A stretch of DNA of 64,000 bases from Thermobaculum terrenum ATCC BAA-798. GTDB taxonomy: Bacteria; Chloroflexota; Chloroflexia; Thermobaculales; Thermobaculaceae. Of the stretch, positions 4,149 to 31,556 are shown one piece after another. The translations under genes were made by a program, and so were the position numbers. Location of the stretch: NCBI RefSeq assembly GCF_000025005.1, contig NC_013526.1, positions 186,001 to 250,000 of the forward strand, given 5' to 3'. The first letter of the stretch is position 1; each line of letters begins with the position of its first letter. Under the pieces are notes generated by a model. That model ran no database searches. It saw only the letters and a list, made by a program, of their open reading frames with translations, and was not told the origin of the DNA.

Positions 4149-6712
4149 CTACCTCAGGATGACGAACGCGTCGATGTCCACCCTCGGCCTGCCGGAGGTG
4201 CCCAGCACCTTGACGGTGACCGTGTGGCTGCCGGAGCTGCTCCACGCCTTGGTGTACACCACCTTGCGCGCCTGAGTGCTTGAGGCGTACAGGTCCACGA
4301 TCGCCGCCCTGACCCCGTCCACGCGTATCTCCGCCTTGCCCAGGCTCGCGGCCTTGGGCGTCACCAGGGAGACGCTGCGGCCCCGGAAGCGCAGGGTGGC
4401 CGTGGCTCCGGCCTGCGTGTGGTACTTGACGTAGCCTCCGTAGGCACCGGTCCTGGCGGTCCGCTTCCAGCCACTGGAGTAGCTGATGGCCGAGGAGTTC
4501 TCCTGCACGGCGGCTACCGTCGTTATGGGGCTGGAGGCGAATGCGCTCTCGTTGCCCGCGCGGTCGGTCGCCTGCACGCGGAACCTGTAGGTGCCCGGAG
4601 CCAGGTGCTTCGTGGTGCTGGTGGCCCCGCCCCTGTAGATGGTGCTCCAGGCGGACCATGCGCTCCCGTCGTAGGTCGACATCTGCACTAGGTAGCTCCC
4701 GATGCCGTTGGCGTCGGTCGCGGACCAGGCCACCCTCACCGGGATCTTGCTCGTGCCCAAGGTGGAGCCCGCCGGCAGGCTGACCGTGGGCGCCTTGGCC
4801 ACCGGCCTGGTGGTGTCCAGCACTATGGTATCGGAGACGATCTCCGAGGTGTTGCCCGCGGCGTCCCGGAAGCTAGCGTACACGGTCTTGGGCCCATCGC
4901 CCGCAGGGAGGGTCCAGCTGACGGATTCGCTGTAGGACTGCCACCCGGACGATCTCTCCCCCGCGTTCCAGATGGCCATCGAGCTTACGCCCCACCCCCT
5001 GTCGGTGGCGTTGATCTGGATGGTCACCTGGGCGTTGTTAGTATAATCCGCCCCGCCAGCGATCTGGATGCTGCCCGTGGGTGGCATCTGGTCGCCGGGC
5101 CTTAGGTTCATCTCCGTGGCATCAACGGCCTTCTTCACCTCGCCGCAGTCCGCGGGGGTGATGCCGCGGGTGCCCACCAGGTTGAGGCATGCCTGCTGCA
5201 GCCCCACGTACAGGTCGCCGTAATCGCTGCCGGAGAGCAGGAAGTTGGTTTCCACCTCGTAGTAGATGGCGGCGACCTTGTCTATCCCCAGCCCTCTGAC
5301 GGTCCAACCGTTGAAGCTGCCCCCGTCGACCATGAGGTATGCGGCCTTGTTGTTCACGCCGCTGTTGGTGTGCACCCTGCCGTTGTCCCCGCTGCCCGTG
5401 TAGTAGTACGGGCTGCTCATCCTGTCGGGATCGCCCATCTGCGGGGGATCCGCCATGTTCCGGATGGCCCAGATGGGTGTGTCCTCGCCCTGTAGCCAAC
5501 GCGTGGCCCTGGTGTCCGTGCCCGCGCCGTTCGTGAGGTCGTACAGCTCGCCGAAGACGTCCGACAGCGACTCGTTGATGGCCCCGGACTGGCTGTATTA
5601 TATCAGCCCGGAGGTGAACTGCGTCACTACATGGGTGAGCTCGTGCCCCACGACGTCGTCCGCCGTGAACCCATCGCCGTAGACCACTTGCTGGAAGGAG
5701 CGAGACCAGAAGGCGTCTTCGTAGGGGCACTCGTAGTCGTCAGGGCAGTACCTGACGGTGGACACGATGGGCATCCCCGCCCCGTCCAGGCTGTCCCTGC
5801 CGAACCTGCTGTAGTAGAAGTCGTACACGCCTCCCGAGAAGTCGTAGGCGCGGTCCACCTCGGGCACCGACTTGGGGGGATCGCCCTCCGAGCGGACCGG
5901 GCTGGTGCAGACGTAGGACTCGTAGGGTACGTTGTTGTTGTCGCACACCTGCCGTGACTTGGCCGTCTCCACCTGATTGAAGTGCAGGAGGACTCGGCCG
6001 GTGTGCGCGTCCACCACCACGAACTCGTTTATCTCGCCCAGCCGCCGCCCCCCCGTGCACCTCCAGCCTCCAGACGAGCGATGTGCCGGTGTTGGGGGGA
6101 GCACCTATCAGCCTCGGGTCGTAGACCCACAGCTGTGGCCTGCTGGCACGCAGTCGATGGATGGGCACATGGTGCGCCTCGGCCACCAGCCACAGCGCCT
6201 TGCCCCTAGCGACGTCGGCCGACACGGACGGGTGGACATCCAAGGTCCACACGGGCAGCAGCTCGCCGTTGGCGGATATGACGTTCCCCTCCCGGTCCAG
6301 CTGCACGTACATCTCTCCGGCTATGATGGGTATGCCCTCGTACACCTGCTGGAAGCGCACGCTCCTGCGGCCGCGGTCGAGTTGCCTGACCCGCTTGACT
6401 ACCAGCTCTCTGGCCTGATCTCTTGCCCCGAACAGCGGGCCGTATTCGGCCAGAAACGCGCGTGCCGCCGCGACCGGGGTCGGCCTGTGGAGCCCGCGCA
6501 CGGTAGAGGGGCGAGCTGGGGGTGCCTCGCAGGTAGCTTATCTTGCCGGTGGCGGCGTTGCGGGCGTGAGTGGGGTTGCCCAGCGAGCTCAGCAGCTCCC
6601 GCTCCTGCCGATCGCCGGAGGCCAGGGTGGGCTCGGTGCCTGCCGGCAGGGTGGGCAAGCACAGGGTCATGATCAGCGCACAGACGCACAACCATCTGAG
6701 ATATCTCTTCAT
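4149..6712 (-). pseudogene. Secreted thermolysin-like (M4) metalloprotease, interrupted
   Basis: The reading frame changes twice and meets one stop, yet all parts of an M4 protease are recognisable in order. They are a signal peptide (MKRYLRWLCVCALIMTLCLP), an FTP/PepSY-like propeptide, and the zinc site HELTH (5631-5645) with the downstream INESLSDVFGE glutamate. A GRVHTNSGV active-site segment, Ig-like domains and a C-terminal module ending RPRVDIDAFVILR follow. A +1 shift lies near 6500-6506. A second shift lies at a run of seven C (6048-6054, G on the coding strand). TAA at 5598-5600 replaces a Tyr-like codon between GLI and YSQSG. AGGAG precedes the ATG. Either this is a recently inactivated exoprotease or the sequence has errors; the TAA is not explained by homopolymer miscalling. 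Confidence 0.82.
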
Positions 6713-24249: not shown

Positions 24250-24289
24250 ACGGGGAGAGGGTGCTAGTAGGAGGGCACCCCCTCCCCGT
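24250..24289. terminator. Bidirectional hairpin between the ABC operon and the ArsR-type gene
   Basis: ACGGGGAGAGGGTGC (24250-24264) pairs with GCACCCCCTCCCCGT (24275-24289) with a single mismatch. It follows the oppD-like stop by a few bases and overlaps the last codons of the convergent regulator, so it can end both transcripts. Confidence 0.65.
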
Positions 24290-24632
24290 CGAGCTTGCCA
24301 CAGCTGGCGAGCGACCGGGCGAAGTGCTCCACCCTGTCGTTGGCGATCTCCAGCAGCTCCCGGAGCTGCTCGTCGGCTAGGCTGTAGTAGATGAAGCTGC
24401 CCTTGCGGCGGACGGACACCAACCCACACCAGCGCAAGCACGCCAGGTGGTTCGATACCCTGCTCTGGGACATGCCCAGCCTGCTCACGATCTCGGAGAC
24501 GTTCTTCTCCCCCTCCAGCAGGAGCTCCAGGATGCCCATGCGCACGGGGTCCCCCAACACGCGGAAGAACCTGGCCTTGAGCTCCGTGCTGCTGTAGGGC
24601 TCGGGTGCCCCCTGGGTCATGGACTCACTCAA
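24264..24632 (-). CDS. ArsR/SmtB metal-sensing repressor, CmtR-like cysteine pattern
   Basis: A 122-residue winged-helix repressor. The recognition helix region reads MSQSRVSNHLACLRWCGLV. Cys65 and Cys69 in that helix and Cys111 near the C-terminus reproduce, in spacing, the Cys-x3-Cys plus distal Cys site of the Cd/Pb sensor CmtR. Soft metals such as Hg, Cd or Pb are therefore likely inducers. A TCTAT/ATAGA inverted repeat overlapping a TATAAT lies just upstream (24664-24676), suggesting autorepression. It borders the mercury gene island and is the only regulator found there, so it is the best candidate for controlling it. Confidence 0.88.
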   Translation of the reverse strand: MSESMTQGAPEPYSSTELKARFFRVLGDPVRMGILELLLEGEKNVSEIVSRLGMSQSRVSNHLACLRWCGLVSVRRKGSFIYYSLADEQLRELLEIANDRVEHFARSLASCGKLDGEGVPSY

Positions 24633-24837: not shown

Positions 24838-25902
24838 TTAGGTCGCCATGACCGCCGCGGCGATAGCTGCGGCGAGCACCCCGCACGCGCACGTGAGCGC
24901 GGACAATAGCAGGAGCACCCTCCTGGGGAAGCTCGTCCAGACCATGGCGATCGAGGGCAAGCTGATAGGCGCCAGCGTCATCAGCAGTGCCGCCGCGGGG
25001 GCCGGCCCAAGCCCCGCAGCCAGCATCGCCTGGACGATCGGGACCTCGCCGGCGGTGGGGATCACGAACAGAGTGCCCAGCAGCGCCAGCAGGATCACGC
25101 CCCACCAGGGTACGGATGCGCTCTGCAGATCGGGGAAGAAGTAGGCCCTCAGCGCCCCCAGCAGCAGCACTATCACCACGTATTCGGGCACCAGCTTCAC
25201 GAGCAGGCTCACGAAGTTGCGGACCCACCTCTGGATGGGGTTGCCCTCGCCCACGGTGGGCTGGGGGTCGTACACCCCAGCCAGGTCCACCCGTTCGGAG
25301 TCCGCCAGCCTGCCCGCGATCGCCGCTGACCCGAGCACCAGCGCCAGGCCCAGCACCAGGCGCAGCAGCGCCCAGCGCCAACCGAGCACGAAGAGCATGA
25401 ACACGATCACCGCGGGGTTGAGCGTCGGGTTGCCCAGGAAGAACGCTGTCGCGCTGCCCACGGACGCCCCACGCCTCCGGATGCCCCTGACCACCGGGGC
25501 GACGCAGCAGGTACACATCATGCACGGCAGCGCCAGCAGCGCCCCCAGGGCGGAGGCCCGCAGCCCACGGCTGCCCAGGAGCCGCATCAGCCAATCGCGC
25601 GGGATGAAGGTCTCGATGGTGGTGGCCATCAGCAGCCCCAACAGCATAGCCTGCCACACGGCCTTGAAGTAGGTCAGGGCGTAGCCCACGCCGCTCGCCA
25701 GCGATGGGCGCGGCATGCTCCCCGAGCGGTCGTAGACTATGGGGTTGCCCAGCGAGTGGGTCGCCAGCGCCCGCAGCGCCTTGTGGAAGTACGGATCCCA
25801 TTTGACGAGGTACAGGCCAACCAGTGCCAGGCCCAGCAGCAGAGCTACGCCGACCAAGCCCTCGCGCCGGTAGCTCCGCACAGGGGTCAGCTCGGAGCTC
25901 AT
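24838..25902 (-). CDS. ArsP/DUF318-type membrane permease with cysteine cluster
   Basis: This 354-residue protein has about eight membrane helices in two related halves, as in the permease family that includes the methylarsenite exporter ArsP. Conserved parts are ALPCMMCTCCVAPVVRGIRR and FFLGNPTLNPAVIVF in the first half and GTLFVIPTAGEVPIVQAML in the second. Four cysteines packed into CMMCTCC are a plausible soft-metal path. ATG 25902 has GGAGGTGG upstream; an in-frame start eight codons earlier is less well placed. It follows the ccdA-like gene in the minus-strand mercury cluster, so export of an organomercury, arsenic or other thiophilic species is inferred. Confidence 0.8.
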   Translation of the reverse strand: MSSELTPVRSYRREGLVGVALLLGLALVGLYLVKWDPYFHKALRALATHSLGNPIVYDRSGSMPRPSLASGVGYALTYFKAVWQAMLLGLLMATTIETFIPRDWLMRLLGSRGLRASALGALLALPCMMCTCCVAPVVRGIRRRGASVGSATAFFLGNPTLNPAVIVFMLFVLGWRWALLRLVLGLALVLGSAAIAGRLADSERVDLAGVYDPQPTVGEGNPIQRWVRNFVSLLVKLVPEYVVIVLLLGALRAYFFPDLQSASVPWWGVILLALLGTLFVIPTAGEVPIVQAMLAAGLGPAPAAALLMTLAPISLPSIAMVWTSFPRRVLLLLSALTCACGVLAAAIAAAVMAT

Positions 25903-25973
25903 CTCCACCTCCTGCAGCACAAGCAACTTATGATAGGTAACTATGTAACTACTCGGTAGTATACCTCAGACCG

Positions 25974-26663
25974 TTACCGCAGGGCGAGCAAGCTCAGCTG
26001 GTAGTAGATCAGGTACAGGCCGGCCAGCAGGACGATCGCCGCGCTCACCCTCTGCACGTACGGGAGCACCCCCTTCAGCCACGCCACGGCGATGCTCCCA
26101 GCGGCAGCGACCGCCACCGCGACCCCCGTCACCACGACGCCCATGCCCAGCGCGTAGCTCACGAACGCCAGCAGCCCGGCGAGCGCTCCCCCGGCGGCGA
26201 CCGATGCCCCGATCGCCACCAGGAAGATGGGCAGGGTGCAGGAGAGGGAGGCGAGTGCGTACCCCACCCCCAAAGCGAAGAACGAAGCCACCCCGCCTCC
26301 TCTGCGCACCCGCACGCCCGGCACCCACCGCAGGTGCAGCTGATGTCCCGTCAGGAGGTAGGCCCCCAGCAGCACCAAGGCCGCTCCCACCAGGAGCGAG
26401 ACGTACGGCATGTAGCCCATGATGGCCCTGCTGCCCAGGGTCAGCAGCACCCCGAACACGAGGAACACGCCGATGAACCCCAGGGTCATCGTCAGGCCGA
26501 ACAGCAGCCCCGCGGCCAGCCTGCCCGCACTTGGGCGCTCGGTGGGGGAGGCGACCTCATGCAGGATGTAGGCCAGCAGCGCCGGCAACATGGCGAAGCC
26601 GCAGGGGTTGAACGCCGCCACTAACCCCGCCGAGAAGGCCAGCGCGATGGGGGCCGAGCTCAT
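25974..26663 (-). CDS. CcdA/DsbD-type thiol-disulfide membrane transporter
   Basis: The 229-residue membrane protein has six helices. The two redox cysteines expected of CcdA are in FNPCGFAMLP (helix 1) and LSCTLPIFL (helix 4). It moves reducing equivalents from cytoplasmic thioredoxin across the membrane. Its start overlaps the stop of the TlpA-like gene by four bases (ATGA), so the pair is translationally coupled and is probably one electron relay. In this cluster it could keep periplasmic mercury-binding cysteines reduced. A cytochrome c role is less likely, since no other cyt c maturation gene is nearby. Confidence 0.88.
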   Translation of the reverse strand: MSSAPIALAFSAGLVAAFNPCGFAMLPALLAYILHEVASPTERPSAGRLAAGLLFGLTMTLGFIGVFLVFGVLLTLGSRAIMGYMPYVSLLVGAALVLLGAYLLTGHQLHLRWVPGVRVRRGGGVASFFALGVGYALASLSCTLPIFLVAIGASVAAGGALAGLLAFVSYALGMGVVVTGVAVAVAAAGSIAVAWLKGVLPYVQRVSAAIVLLAGLYLIYYQLSLLALR

Positions 26664-27259
26664 CTCAGCGCCTCCTGTACTGCCGCCTCGAGCTCCCCGG
26701 GGGAAGTGCCGCCCTCGAACCTGGCGACCACCCTCCCCTGACGGTCGATGATCACCTTGGTGTCCGCGACCTGCACGCCGTAGGCCGTGGTTACCTTGTA
26801 GTCGCGGTCGACCGCCCAGCCGTAGTCGCCGCCGTTGGTCTGCTGCTTGAACCTCAGGAGGTCTCCCCTGCCGTCGTCGCTCTCGACGTCCAGCACCAGT
26901 ACCTGCAGCCCCTGGCCGTGGTACTTGTCGTACAGCTGGTTCAGTTTAGCTATCTCGGGGATGCAGGAGTAGCACCAGGGGGCGGTGAACATGAGCACCA
27001 CCGCCTTGCCCCTGTGGGCGGAGAGCGAGAAGGTACTCCCATCCAGGGTGGTCACGCTGAAGTCCGGAGCCAGCTGCCGGGACGAGCTCGCCGTCTGCCC
27101 CGGTCCCTGGGCCGACCCTGGCTGCCTCCCGTTAGATAGCAGCAGGGCTCCCACCACGGCCGTGGCCAGCACGAGCACCGCAACGGGCAGGATCAACCCG
27201 GCGCCGCGCCAGCCGGCAGTGGCCCTCTGAGCACCGACCTTCTTATTTGTGGACGACAT
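26660..27259 (-). CDS. Membrane-anchored TlpA/ResA-type thioredoxin
   Basis: A 199-residue protein with one N-terminal membrane anchor (LILPVAVLVLATAVVGALLL), a Gln/Ser-rich linker and an AhpC/TSA-like thioredoxin fold with the active site APWCYSCIPE. The motif WCYSC fits an extracytoplasmic reductant. It overlaps the ccdA-like gene (4 bases) and the upstream merE-like gene (17 bases), so all three are one coupled unit. It probably receives electrons from the CcdA-like protein and reduces thiols of the mercury-handling proteins outside the membrane. Confidence 0.88.
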   Translation of the reverse strand: MSSTNKKVGAQRATAGWRGAGLILPVAVLVLATAVVGALLLSNGRQPGSAQGPGQTASSSRQLAPDFSVTTLDGSTFSLSAHRGKAVVLMFTAPWCYSCIPEIAKLNQLYDKYHGQGLQVLVLDVESDDGRGDLLRFKQQTNGGDYGWAVDRDYKVTTAYGVQVADTKVIIDRQGRVVARFEGGTSPGELEAAVQEALR

Positions 27260-27563
27260 CCTCGACCTCCTGCCTTTGTTGAGACTCCGCAGAGAGGGGC
27301 GCGGCGCTGCAGCAATCCATCTCCTGGCTCTGGGCGGCGCGCTCGCCTCCGCCCGAGCCCAGCAGCTTGACGCCCATGGCGATCGCGAACACGAAGTAGG
27401 CCAACGCGCCGAGCCCGATGATCAGGGGGTTGCTGGTCAACAGGGACCCCAGGGCAGTGCCGCCGAGCAGCCCCACTAGCAGGGGCAGGGTCAGCGGCAG
27501 ATGGCATGGGCAGGCGATAACCCCAGTGCCCAGCAGCAACAACCCGACGGCTTTACGTAACAT
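27243..27563 (-). CDS. merE: MerE-like mercury transport protein
   Basis: The 106-residue protein has two membrane helices with the sequence GVIACPCHLPLTLPLLVGLL. CPCHLP is the signature of MerE, a small carrier for inorganic and methyl mercury. A second cysteine pair (MDCCSAAP) lies in the C-terminal tail, which is longer than in classical MerE. Its end overlaps the TlpA-like gene by 17 bases. Together with merA and merB across the divergent region it defines a mercury locus. Confidence 0.72.
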   Translation of the reverse strand: MLRKAVGLLLLGTGVIACPCHLPLTLPLLVGLLGGTALGSLLTSNPLIIGLGALAYFVFAIAMGVKLLGSGGGERAAQSQEMDCCSAAPLSAESQQRQEVEDVVHK

Positions 27564-28205: not shown

Positions 28206-28364
28206 GGTCCCGCACCTCGTCCTTTGCAATAATTCATGCAACAGTGATATCATAAATTACTGATATAACTTATACCCGGAAGACCTGGGTGTCAAGCGCC
28301 AGGGGTGGCAAGCTCCATGTTATATCAAGTATGGATGATATATTAGCCCCTTGCAGGAGGTGTA
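28206..28364. promoter_or_regulatory. Divergent promoter region of the mercury island with repeated TGATAT motifs
   Basis: This AT-rich gap separates the minus-strand merE operon from the plus-strand rhodanese/merA operon. It holds a TGATATCA palindrome (28245-28252) and a 9-bp inverted repeat TGATATAAC/GTTATATCA (28261-28269 and 28319-28327). A minus-strand TTGACA (28295-28290) precedes AT-rich -10-like bases. On the plus strand TATATT (28339-28344) may be the -10. The repeats are plausible sites for the ArsR-type repressor. No MerR-type 19-bp-spaced promoter is obvious. Confidence 0.45.
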
Positions 28365-29041
28365 ATGATGCCGAAAGCGGTGGATCGGCGAGAGGTGATG
28401 GCCCTGCGGGAAGCGGGCGCCCAGCTGGTGGAAGTGCTCTCCAGGGAGGAGTACGAGCTGGAGTATCTGCCGGGTGCGGTCAGCCTGCCGCTGCGGGAGC
28501 TGGGTGGACGTGCCAGGGTGATCCTGGATCTCTCCAGGCCGGTCGTGGTCTACTGCCACAACCACCAGTGAGACATGAGCGCAAGGCCGCGTGGCGGCTC
28601 GAGAGCCTGGGTTTTGAGGAGGTGTACAGGTACACGGCCGGCAAAGCCGATTGGATGGCCGCTGGCTTGCCATTGGAGGGCGAGAGGGCGGGCATACCCA
28701 GGGTGGGCGGTGTGGCCAGGAGGGACGTGCCGACCTGCGAGCTGGGCGAGAGGGTGAGCGACTTCCTGGAGCGAGCGCAGGGATCCGGCTGGCCTTTGGC
28801 CGTGGTGGTGAACGAGGTGCGCGTGGTGCTGGGGCTGTTGGACCTCGAGCGCATCGATCGGGGTGCCTCAGTCATGCTGGTGCAGGACGTGATGGTTGAG
28901 GGACCGGTTACCTACAGGCCGTCGGTGCCCGCAGTGGAGGCCGCCGGTCGTCTCAGGGAGAGGGGTGTGTCGTACGTGCTGGTAACGACCAGTGATGGTG
29001 AGCTGGTGGGCGTCTTCTTCGCCCAGGATGTGAGGGGGTAA
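28365..29041 (+). CDS. Rhodanese-CBS protein with in-frame UGA at a cysteine position and a frameshift
   Basis: The N-terminal part is a rhodanese-like domain (LVEVLSREEYELEYLPGAVS, then RPVVVYCHNHQ). UGA (28569-28571) follows Gln, then DMS. The sequence then continues in another frame as AAWRLESLGFEEVYRYTAGK and a two-CBS-like segment ending VGVFFAQDVRG at 29041. A Cys would be expected where UGA stands (C-x3-Q-C-D-x-S). One missing base near 28578-28584 would restore the frame. A GGCCGC-GTG-GCGGCT hairpin starts 13 bases after the UGA. AGGAGG precedes ATGATG. Options are a selenocysteine gene with a sequencing error, or a decayed gene. Sulfur transfer or thiol sensing is the inferred role. 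Confidence 0.6.
28585..28599 (+). promoter_or_regulatory. Possible SECIS-like hairpin after the rhodanese UGA
   Basis: GGCCGC (28585-28590) pairs with GCGGCT (28594-28599), with one G-U, around a GUG loop. The loop begins 19 bases after the UGA, within the range of bacterial SECIS elements, and has G and U at its first two positions. The loop is very short, so this is weaker than the element at 29120. Confidence 0.3.
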
Positions 29042-29043
29042 GC

Positions 29044-29349
29044 ATGGCACGAGATCGAGGTCTGCTGCAGAGGACGCTGCTGGAGGTCGATGACATGACC
29101 TGAGAGCGCTGTGGCGAGAGGGTGCGGTCTGCACTCATAGAGCTTGTGGGCGTCGTGCGAGCGGATGTGGATTGGCAGACCGGCACGGCCGAGGTGTACC
29201 ACGCCGCGGAGCTGGCGCCGGAGGCGTTGGTGCGAGCGGTCGAGGAGGCATCCAGGGGCACGGTGCACCACTACACCGCCCGGGTGGTGAGCTCGGAGCA
29301 ACAAGAGCATCAAACATGTATAGGAGATATCTGCGATGACAACGGATGA
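29044..29349 (+). CDS. MerP-like HMA metal-binding protein with UGA for the first metal ligand (putative selenoprotein)
   Basis: From ATG 29044 the frame reads LLEVDDMT, UGA (29101-29103), ERCGERVRSALIELVGVV and continues open for 81 further codons. The beta-alpha-beta-beta-alpha-beta pattern is that of a heavy-metal-associated domain. In that domain the metal loop is MTCxxC; here the first Cys codon is UGA, giving MT-U-ERC. A hairpin with GGUCU loop follows (29120-29136). Translation restarting after the UGA would lose the first strand and the metal loop. The gene begins 2 bases after the rhodanese gene and overlaps merA by 14 bases, so it looks maintained as part of the operon. Selenocysteine is inferred; a nonsense mutation is the alternative. 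Confidence 0.65.
29120..29136 (+). promoter_or_regulatory. Candidate bacterial SECIS hairpin
   Basis: GGGTGC (29120-29125) pairs with GCACTC (29131-29136), six pairs with one G-U, and presents the loop GGTCT. The loop starts 22 bases after the UGA. The loop and following GCAC closely match the apical part of the E. coli fdhF element as I remember it. Bacterial SelB requires an apical loop with G-U at about this distance. Confidence 0.55.
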
Positions 29350-30988
29350 GGCTAGGCACTACAGGATGAGGATACAGGGCATGACCTGCAGCCACTGCGC
29401 CGAGGTGGTCACGGGGGCGCTGGAGGGAGCAGGAGCCCAGGAGGTGAGCGTGGATTACCTCAAGGGTGAGGCTAACTTCCGCTTCGCGGGGGACCTGAGC
29501 ACCCTGCGGCAGGCGGTGATCGAGGCCGGCTACGTGCCCGACGGCGTGGTCGACGTGACCCAGGAGGGGCGCGGCGGGGCGATGCACGACGGTCACGACT
29601 ACGACCTCGTGGTGGTGGGCTCGGGCGGTGCAGCCTTCGCTGGCGCCATCAGGGCGACGGAGCTGGGCGCCCGGGTGCTCATGATCGAGAGGGGTACCGT
29701 GGGCGGTACCTGCGTCAACGTGGGTTGCATCCCCAGCAAGTTCCTCCTGCGCTCGGCGGAGGTGTACCACGAGGCGGCCCATCACCCCTACCGTGGCGTC
29801 GAGACCCGCGCCTCCTCGGTCGACCTGGGAGAGCTCGTCCGGCAGAAGGGGGAGCTCACCGAGCGGCTCCGCCAGGAGAAGTACCTGGACCTGATAGGTG
29901 AGTACGGCTGGGAGCTGGAGCTGGGCGAGGCTCGCTTCGTTGACGAGGGCACCCTGGAGGTGAACGGCCACAGGGTGAGGGGCAGGCACTACCTGTTGGC
30001 GACTGGTGCTCGCCCCGCCGTGCCCCCGATACCGGGGCTGGAGGAGGCGGGCTACATCACGAGCACCACCGCGATGGAGCTGGATCACGTCCCCGAGTCG
30101 CTGCTCATCATAGGGGCGGGGTACGTGGCGCTCGAGCTGGGGATGGTCTTCCGCCGGCTGGGGAGCCAGGTGACGATCATGCAGCGGGGAGGCAGGATAC
30201 TGAGGGAGTACGATCCCGAGGTGTCGGATGCGGTGATGGAGGTGCTCCGGCGGGAGGGGATATCAGTGCTCACCGGGGCAAGGGTCCAGCGCGTCCTGCG
30301 CGACGGCGGCTCCAAGCTCCTGGAGGTGCGTACCGGAGACGGCACCCTCACCCTGAGGGGAGAGGAGGTCCTCGTGGCCACCGGCAGGAGCCCCAACGTG
30401 GAGGCGCTGGATCTCCCCGTGGCCGGCGTGCAGCTGGACGATACCGGCGCGGTAGCCGTGGACGAGGCCCAGAGGACCACCAACCCCAGGGTGTGGGCTG
30501 CGGGCGACGTCACCCGGACGCCACAGTTCGTGTACGTGGCCGCCTACGAGGGCGGGCTGGCGGCGGGCAACGCGCTCACGGGCGCCAGGACCTACAGGGA
30601 CCTGAGTGCCCTCCCCAGCGTGATCTTCACCCAGCCCCAGATAGCCTCGGTGGGGATGACCGAGGCGGAGGCCAGGGCCAAGGGCCTGGAGGTCAGGACG
30701 TCGACCCTGCCGCTGGACGCCGTGCCCAGGGCCCGGGTGAACGGGGACGGCCTGGGGCTCTTCAAGCTCGTGGCCGAGGCCTCCTCCGACAGGCTGCTCG
30801 GCGCCCAGGTGGTGGCGGAGAACGCGGGCGACGTGATCTACGCCGCGGTGCTGGCGACGAGGTTCGGGCTGAGGGTCTCCGACCTGCTCGACACCTTCGC
30901 CCCCTACCTCACGATGGCGGAGGGGCTCAAGCTCGCGGCGCAGTCCTTCAGCCGCGACGTAAAGAAGCTGTCCTGCTGCGCAGCCTAG
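29336..30988 (+). CDS. merA: Mercuric reductase with N-terminal HMA domain
   Basis: The 550-residue FAD/NAD(P)H enzyme reduces Hg(II) to Hg(0). Residues 1-67 form an HMA domain with GMTCSHC. The flavoprotein core begins with VVGSGGAAFAGAIRA. The redox-active disulfide is in GGTCVNVGCIPSK (about 122-134), the NAD fold is IGAGYVALELG and the dimerisation domain follows. The C-terminus ends LSCCAA, the vicinal cysteines that pass Hg(II) to the active site, which distinguishes MerA from lipoamide dehydrogenase. AGGAG precedes the ATG, which lies inside the last codons of the MerP-like gene. This firmly identifies the region as a mercury resistance locus. Confidence 0.96.
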   Translation: MTTDEARHYRMRIQGMTCSHCAEVVTGALEGAGAQEVSVDYLKGEANFRFAGDLSTLRQAVIEAGYVPDGVVDVTQEGRGGAMHDGHDYDLVVVGSGGAAFAGAIRATELGARVLMIERGTVGGTCVNVGCIPSKFLLRSAEVYHEAAHHPYRGVETRASSVDLGELVRQKGELTERLRQEKYLDLIGEYGWELELGEARFVDEGTLEVNGHRVRGRHYLLATGARPAVPPIPGLEEAGYITSTTAMELDHVPESLLIIGAGYVALELGMVFRRLGSQVTIMQRGGRILREYDPEVSDAVMEVLRREGISVLTGARVQRVLRDGGSKLLEVRTGDGTLTLRGEEVLVATGRSPNVEALDLPVAGVQLDDTGAVAVDEAQRTTNPRVWAAGDVTRTPQFVYVAAYEGGLAAGNALTGARTYRDLSALPSVIFTQPQIASVGMTEAEARAKGLEVRTSTLPLDAVPRARVNGDGLGLFKLVAEASSDRLLGAQVVAENAGDVIYAAVLATRFGLRVSDLLDTFAPYLTMAEGLKLAAQSFSRDVKKLSCCAA

Positions 30989-31053: not shown

Positions 31054-31556
31054 ATGAGCTATAGGCAGATAGAGCTACCTGAAGAGCTAATAGAGCGCCT
31101 CGCGCAGGTCCTAGATCTACCGGAGGATGCTCGGCACGAACACTAGGGGATCTTGTGGATGCCCTCTCCAAGGAGACGCCGAGGATACGCCCCGAGGTGG
31201 ATGCGGGCGGGAAACGCCTCTACGTGCACTGCTTCATGGACGCTCTGATGGCGCCGACCGTGCTGGGGTATGAGTCGGTCAGCGTGCGCTCCGATAGCCC
31301 GTCGGGCGGGCAGGTGATGGCGCACGTGACCGGGCGGACTGTGGAGGCCTGGCCGGAGGGTGAGGTGGTGTCCTTCGGTGCGGCGCGGTCCGGGAAGGGG
31401 CCGGTGCAGGAGCTCCTCTGCCCCTACATCAACGCCTTTCCGTCCCGCCAGGACTACGAGCGGTGGGCGCGCGAGACCCCCGAGGCCGTCACCATAGCCC
31501 TGTCGCTGGAGGAGGCGTTCGCCCTTGCTCGCGGCCTGGCCGCCACGAGGCCGTGA
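31054..31556 (+). pseudogene. merB: Organomercurial lyase, apparently frameshifted after the N-terminal helix
   Basis: The catalytic part (in frame from GTG 31155) matches Mer[12 protein letters not shown] has the Cys and the Asp three residues later that correspond to Cys96 and Asp99, and [11 protein letters not shown] has the Cys159 equivalent. This enzyme cleaves carbon-mercury bonds. Upstream, ATG 31054 opens a frame [19 protein letters not shown], helical and plausible as the N-terminus, which stops at TAG 31144. A one-base shift near 31130-31143 would join it to [12 protein letters not shown]. Either merB is broken, or a short form from GTG 31155 is made, or a base is missing in the sequence. 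A CAGATAT/ATATCTG inverted repeat (31028-31053) precedes it. Confidence 0.72.

Follow-up and report, generated by a model that had tools for sequence, protein, structure and literature searches.

A predicted selenocysteine-containing HMA protein in the mercury-resistance operon of Thermobaculum terrenum

The HMA-domain protein encoded directly upstream of merA in Thermobaculum terrenum very probably contains selenocysteine (Sec) in place of the first metal-binding cysteine. We consider it likely that this protein is a cytosolic selenoprotein in which the UGA at codon 20 is decoded as Sec, and that it binds Hg(II) and hands it to the mercuric reductase MerA; Sec insertion, the identity of the metal and the hand-off are the parts of this mechanism that we infer from sequence. 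The window, that is the whole stretch of 64,000 nucleotides that was analysed, consisted of bases 186001-250000 of contig C2 of the T. terrenum genome (3,101,581 bp in two contigs). The features discussed below are given in window positions, except for the last line, which gives positions within the loci named.

29044-29349, plus strand: predicted free-standing HMA (NmerA/CopZ-like) selenoprotein gene with the metal loop MT-U-ER-C, 101 residues if the UGA is Sec.
29101-29103, plus strand: predicted Sec codon, UGA, at codon 20, the first metal-ligand position; the orthologue L018 has the same TGA, and relatives have Cys.
29120-29136, plus strand: SECIS-like hairpin GGGUGC-GGUCU-GCACUC with its loop 22 nt after the UGA, with spacing and loop as the published model requires; weak when taken alone.
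28365-29041, plus strand: rhodanese-CBS gene with a UGA in place of the catalytic Cys codon, frameshifted and one base short as deposited; its ordinary open frame covers the CBS part only.
28569-28571, plus strand: UGA codon at the catalytic position of the rhodanese domain, in YCHNHQ-U-DMSA.
28585-28601, plus strand: putative rhodanese SECIS stem-loop GGCCGC-GUG-GCGGCUC, one base missing relative to all relatives.
29336-30988, plus strand: merA, encoding a mercury(II) reductase that carries an HMA domain (MTCSHC) at its N-terminus; TIGR02053 592 bits, cut-off 454.
31155-31556, plus strand: merB-like alkylmercury lyase; PF03243 89.1 bits, cut-off 27.
28244-28342, no strand assigned: promoter region shared by the two divergent arms, containing a related pair of 24-bp elements, 28244-28267 and 28319-28342.
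27243-27563, minus strand: MerE-like small membrane protein of the divergent arm, a weak match (PF05052 19.5 bits, below 22.8).
26660-27259, minus strand: TlpA/ResA-like thioredoxin-fold protein (PF00578 70.7 bits), found beside the rhodanese in other genomes too.
25974-26663, minus strand: CcdA/DsbD-like membrane protein, named by inspection; a homologue adjoins the rhodanese in L088, L124 and L125.
24838-25926, minus strand: ArsP/SO_0444-type permease (PF03773 99.6 bits).
24264-24632, minus strand: ArsR-family regulator (PF01022 60.9 bits).
L118 5998-6666, L119 438-1103 and L117 about 6001-6603: rhodanese-CBS genes on actinobacterial plasmids.

In the HMA gene, 19 sense codons preceded the TGA, which occupied the first ligand position of the MTCxxC metal loop, and 81 followed it before the frame closed with another TGA at 29347-29349. 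This reading confirmed an earlier note on the same DNA, in which an MT-UGA-ERC loop had been described between 19 and 81 sense codons of one frame. The domain had also been called otherwise intact, and it was: with Cys written for U, the protein scored 41.3 bits against PF00403 (cut-off 24.8), and its AlphaFold2 model (pLDDT 83) showed the β-α-β-β-α-β ferredoxin-like fold of HMA domains. The label “MerP-like” given to it in that note did not stand, since the score against the MerP model TIGR02052 was 23.7 bits, far below the curated cut-off of 92.55, and the hydrophobic signal segment expected of periplasmic MerP was not seen on inspection of the N-terminus MARDRGLLQRTLLEVDD; for these two reasons the name MerP is unfit. 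The top family scores were those of CopZ-type copper chaperones (NF047957, 44.9 bits, below the cut-off of 85), and the protein looks closer to a cytosolic, free-standing domain of the NmerA/CopZ type than to MerP.

The genes of the T. terrenum operon were arranged in the order rhodanese-CBS, HMA, merA and merB. The rhodanese-CBS gene ended two bases 5' of the HMA start, and merA began 14 bases inside the end of the HMA gene, an overlap which supports the co-transcription of the HMA gene with merA, with merB nearby. The two 24-bp elements of the divergent promoter region are candidate ArsR operators. In the metagenome-assembled genome (MAG) “Chloroflexia bacterium YX1bin4” (G005), which carried the only orthologue found for the HMA gene, the order was merR, merA, HMA(Sec), a small membrane protein, merB, a conserved small protein and rhodanese-CBS(Sec), so that the orthologue also adjoined merA. 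In both genomes, the operon contained the predicted Sec-HMA gene together with a rhodanese-CBS gene that has UGA for its catalytic Cys. An HMA domain was not seen at the start of MerA in the G005 MAG. The merA gene of this MAG was frameshifted, and a neighbouring gene contained an internal TAG (L096 8584-10024 and 11239-11747); both are probably assembly errors.

In the mechanism that we propose, the codon-20 UGA would be read as Sec by means of SelB, tRNA-Sec and the hairpin just 3' of it, giving a mixed selenolate/thiolate metal site of the form U-x-x-C, and translation of the HMA protein would be tightly coupled to that of merA. This site would bind a soft metal, most likely cytosolic Hg(II) arriving by transport or from the cleavage of organomercurials by MerB, and the protein would pass the metal to MerA or to the HMA domain of MerA; such delivery is plausible. 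With an HMA domain already present in the T. terrenum MerA, it is not obvious why a second Hg carrier would be needed, and other functions are conceivable. A genuine Sec-HMA protein might serve another soft metal, sequester Hg or methyl-Hg, or use U-x-x-C for redox chemistry with TlpA and CcdA, the genes of which lie in the divergent arm. The higher score of the CopZ-type chaperones is in keeping with such a role, and selenolate binds Hg(II) very tightly, which on general chemical grounds might slow the hand-off. The position of the HMA gene beside merA and merB in both genomes argues against it, as does the G005 MerA, which a separate HMA protein could serve as its start has no visible HMA domain. 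A job other than Hg delivery is a possibility to be kept in mind, but on the whole a rather unlikely one. Some decay of the operon is also possible, as the rhodanese-CBS gene of T. terrenum was frameshifted as deposited.

The reading of codon 20 as Sec was supported by the conserved UGA, by Cys-containing relatives and by the Sec genes of the host, in agreement with the proposal of the earlier note. A protein search that read through stops in 158 genomes of the class yielded the single orthologue in G005 (L018), which was 56% identical and had MT-UGA-ARC at the same codon, its other stop being only the natural end. Cys was present at the matching position in the Cys relatives and in the HMA domain of the T. 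terrenum MerA; the exchange of Cys and UGA among orthologues, which that note had named as a check together with the lack of random stops, was therefore seen. A search for selA, selB, selC and selD had been suggested as well, and all four were found, making the Sec trait complete: tRNA-Sec with the anticodon UCA (71.2 bits), SelA (505.6 bits), SelB (320.6 bits, above the curated cut-off, with weaker SelB matches in all controls) and SelD (365.7 bits). With a single in-frame TGA where Sec is expected, in the motif SCAG-U-AAK, selD itself appeared to be a selenoprotein gene (L098 1531-1533, contig C1 of the T. terrenum genome, G000). Since UGA serves as the stop codon of other genes, and of the HMA gene itself, an alternative genetic code was ruled out.

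It is very improbable that the HMA gene is a decaying pseudogene and its UGA a simple nonsense mutation. The one-base deletion in the adjoining rhodanese gene as deposited and the 41 pseudogenes reported for the T. terrenum genome (PMC3035366) would fit such decay, but the same UGA occurred in an orthologue of 56% identity with no further stop or frameshift in either gene, and the codon affected was that of a metal-binding Cys in an organism that decodes Sec. Furthermore, comparison of the T. terrenum and G005 genes by NG86 gave dN 0.49 and dS 2.09 before the UGA and dN 0.37 and dS 1.06 after it, so that dN/dS was below 1 and the gene appears to be under purifying selection on both sides. It is just as hard to regard the UGA as a true stop, either behind a 19-residue leader followed by a restart downstream, for example at the GTG at 29122, or as a device that tunes the translation of merA. 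The start at 29122 does open a 75-residue frame, but a restart there would leave out the first strand and the two metal ligands, although the codons before the UGA were conserved too, and a purine-rich GAGGGGG stretch precedes the start at 29044. A sequencing error at 29101-29103 can practically be dismissed, for in spite of a probable one-base error or mutation 0.5 kb upstream, the T. terrenum YNP1 genome was finished with Sanger, 454 and Illumina data at a stated error rate of <1 in 100,000 (PMC3035366), and the independent G005 genome had the same TGA.

Across about 590 distinct genomes of Chloroflexota, only two members of the Sec-HMA family were found, one of which comes from an error-prone MAG. 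The family was not found in further Chloroflexota classes, in genome sets that contained no positive control, and a tblastn search of plasmids with the HMA protein gave no match. A relative in G162 was rejected as a member, as its apparent TGA was the normal terminal codon and its protein has Cys.

The hairpin 3' of the HMA UGA had the geometry given in the earlier note, with 16 bases between the UGA and the stem and the loop after 22. Its 6-bp stem was formed by GGGTGC (29120-29125) and GCACTC (29131-29136) around the loop GGTCT (29126-29130). The likeness to the tip of the E. coli fdhF element noted there was also verified on the K-12 sequence, where UGC-AGGUCU-GCA differed by one base from UGC-GGUCU-GCA of T. 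terrenum. The isolated hairpin had a folding energy of -7.1 kcal/mol, just short of the -7.5 of the published bacterial SECIS model, and a 36-nt fold reached -11.1; in the G005 orthologue, the loop GGA lay 20 nt after the UGA and the energy was -8.7 kcal/mol. Both hairpins fitted the spacing and loop rules of that model. A stem as long was present at 5.8% of control codons, and a model-fitting hairpin at ≤-7.5 kcal/mol at about 7% of them, so the hairpin is consistent with the Sec reading, but is weak evidence by itself. Searches of 28300-29400 and five related loci against all Rfam families returned nothing real.

Directly 5' of the HMA gene, the rhodanese-CBS gene with its own UGA was absent from the earlier note. 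Sequence comparison clearly points to a selenoprotein family of sulfurtransferases widespread in Chloroflexota. The class search found an internal TGA in each close relative, as did a sample of 400 genomes of the phylum in essentially all rhodanese-CBS matches except the C-terminal piece of T. terrenum; in intact homologues from Chloroflexota and Actinomycetota that were inspected, TGA occupied the catalytic position in 30 of 30. The rhodanese domain was recognized in the relative L027 (PF00581, 49.7 bits). In the 30 intact sequences, the stem-loop GGGCCGC-GUG-GCGGCUC, its loop 20 nt after the UGA, was nearly invariant, and synonymous sites within it were almost frozen (GCG in 14/15, CTC in 15/15 and GCC in 14/15), while those outside varied. 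In the covariation analysis of 15 sequences, the observed score was reached by 32 of 500 shuffles because the stem hardly varies; the case for this SECIS element thus rests on the conserved synonymous sites and on one compensatory change, from a C-G to an A-U pair in one sequence. In T. terrenum, the frame shifted just after the UGA, owing to one base missing from the SECIS stretch, where a G run at 28585-28595 was shortened relative to every relative; the shortened run suggests either a recent mutation or a sequencing error. The CBS part remained open and conserved, with 57-58% identity to G111.

MerA and/or MerB genes were close to the rhodanese at seven loci (T. terrenum, G005, G111, G143, G370, G293 and a Pseudonocardia plasmid), and the G293 and G370 loci also carried ArsR, TlpA and CcdA. 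Among roughly 40 rhodanese-CBS loci, the majority showed no mer gene nearby, and many were on short contigs; the linkage is recurrent, not general. In L088, L124 and L125, TlpA-like and CcdA-like genes adjoined the predicted Sec rhodanese-CBS gene, and two of these loci also contained ArsR and MerA; this recurrence suggests a larger conserved module. The two selenoproteins might even form a joint selenium-based mercury module that makes Hg detoxification selenium-dependent, in which the rhodanese would act on persulfide or perselenide, or else protect or reload the selenolate, and the HMA protein would carry Hg to MerA as a selenolate complex; we regard this as speculative and rather improbable.

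Sec-containing HMA and rhodanese proteins are already known kinds, and their pairing in a mer operon is covered by no NCBIfam selenoprotein model. The belief in the earlier note that Sec forms of MerP had been predicted in metagenome surveys proved right, as the GOS survey lists a Sec-containing MerP in two sequences with no Cys homologue (PMC2398784). By description, both that protein and the T. terrenum HMA protein are small, putatively mercury-binding and predicted to contain Sec, but the former is a metagenomic prediction and the latter comes from an operon in the finished genome of a cultured thermophile and, unlike MerP, lacks a signal peptide and falls below the TIGR02052 cut-off. A 2026 review includes a UxxU metal-binding HMA-like protein, a MerT-like protein and a UxxC cation ATPase among selenoproteins, together with five rhodanese-like forms, one of them with UxxS (PMC13188914). 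The first of these, modelled by NF041115 as a UxxU metal-binding (seleno)protein (“putative mercuric reductase”), is also a stand-alone HMA-like protein with Sec in the metal loop, but the T. terrenum protein reached only 37.1 of the 95 bits required and has UxxC, with one predicted Sec and one Cys in place of two Sec. The MerT/CopZ fusion-like selenoprotein NF045683 and the UxxC cation-transporting ATPase likewise link Sec-containing HMA-type domains to metal transport, whereas the T. terrenum protein has no membrane part and scored 21.7 bits against the NF045683 cut-off of 375. NmerA of mercuric reductase and the CopZ chaperones share the fold and the CxxC loop (the mercuric reductase HMA domain 2kt2 is a solved relative); the T. 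terrenum protein differs from them in the predicted Sec for the first Cys, in being a separate polypeptide and in a conserved C-terminal tail, SRGT(I/V)HHY. The neighbouring rhodanese resembles forms 1-5 of the review in the catalytic position of its predicted Sec, and its UDMS fits “form 1” (UxxS) by motif, but it is fused to CBS. Its relatives scored 23.7-26.2 bits against NF041203 (cut-off 115) and were likewise far below the NF045694 cut-off; they and the HMA protein were below every corresponding NCBIfam selenoprotein cut-off tested.

What is new here is the mer operon, the cultured host and the adjoining Sec rhodanese-CBS family, widely conserved and mis-annotated. Mercury toxicity is often attributed to attack on selenoproteins, and the use of Sec as a mercury ligand in a detoxification operon, if true, would be a striking inversion of this. 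The question can be put to the test in T. terrenum, a cultured isolate in which the Sec pathway is complete and the mer genes form a compact operon. The rhodanese-CBS selenoprotein genes are split or cut at the UGA in RefSeq and are covered by no NCBIfam selenoprotein model. TGA was also present in the Rubrobacter and Pseudonocardia plasmid homologues, the latter split into two proteins in RefSeq and the former annotated for the CBS part only. In Pseudonocardia autotrophica, the predicted Sec rhodanese-CBS gene lay beside MerR and MerB.
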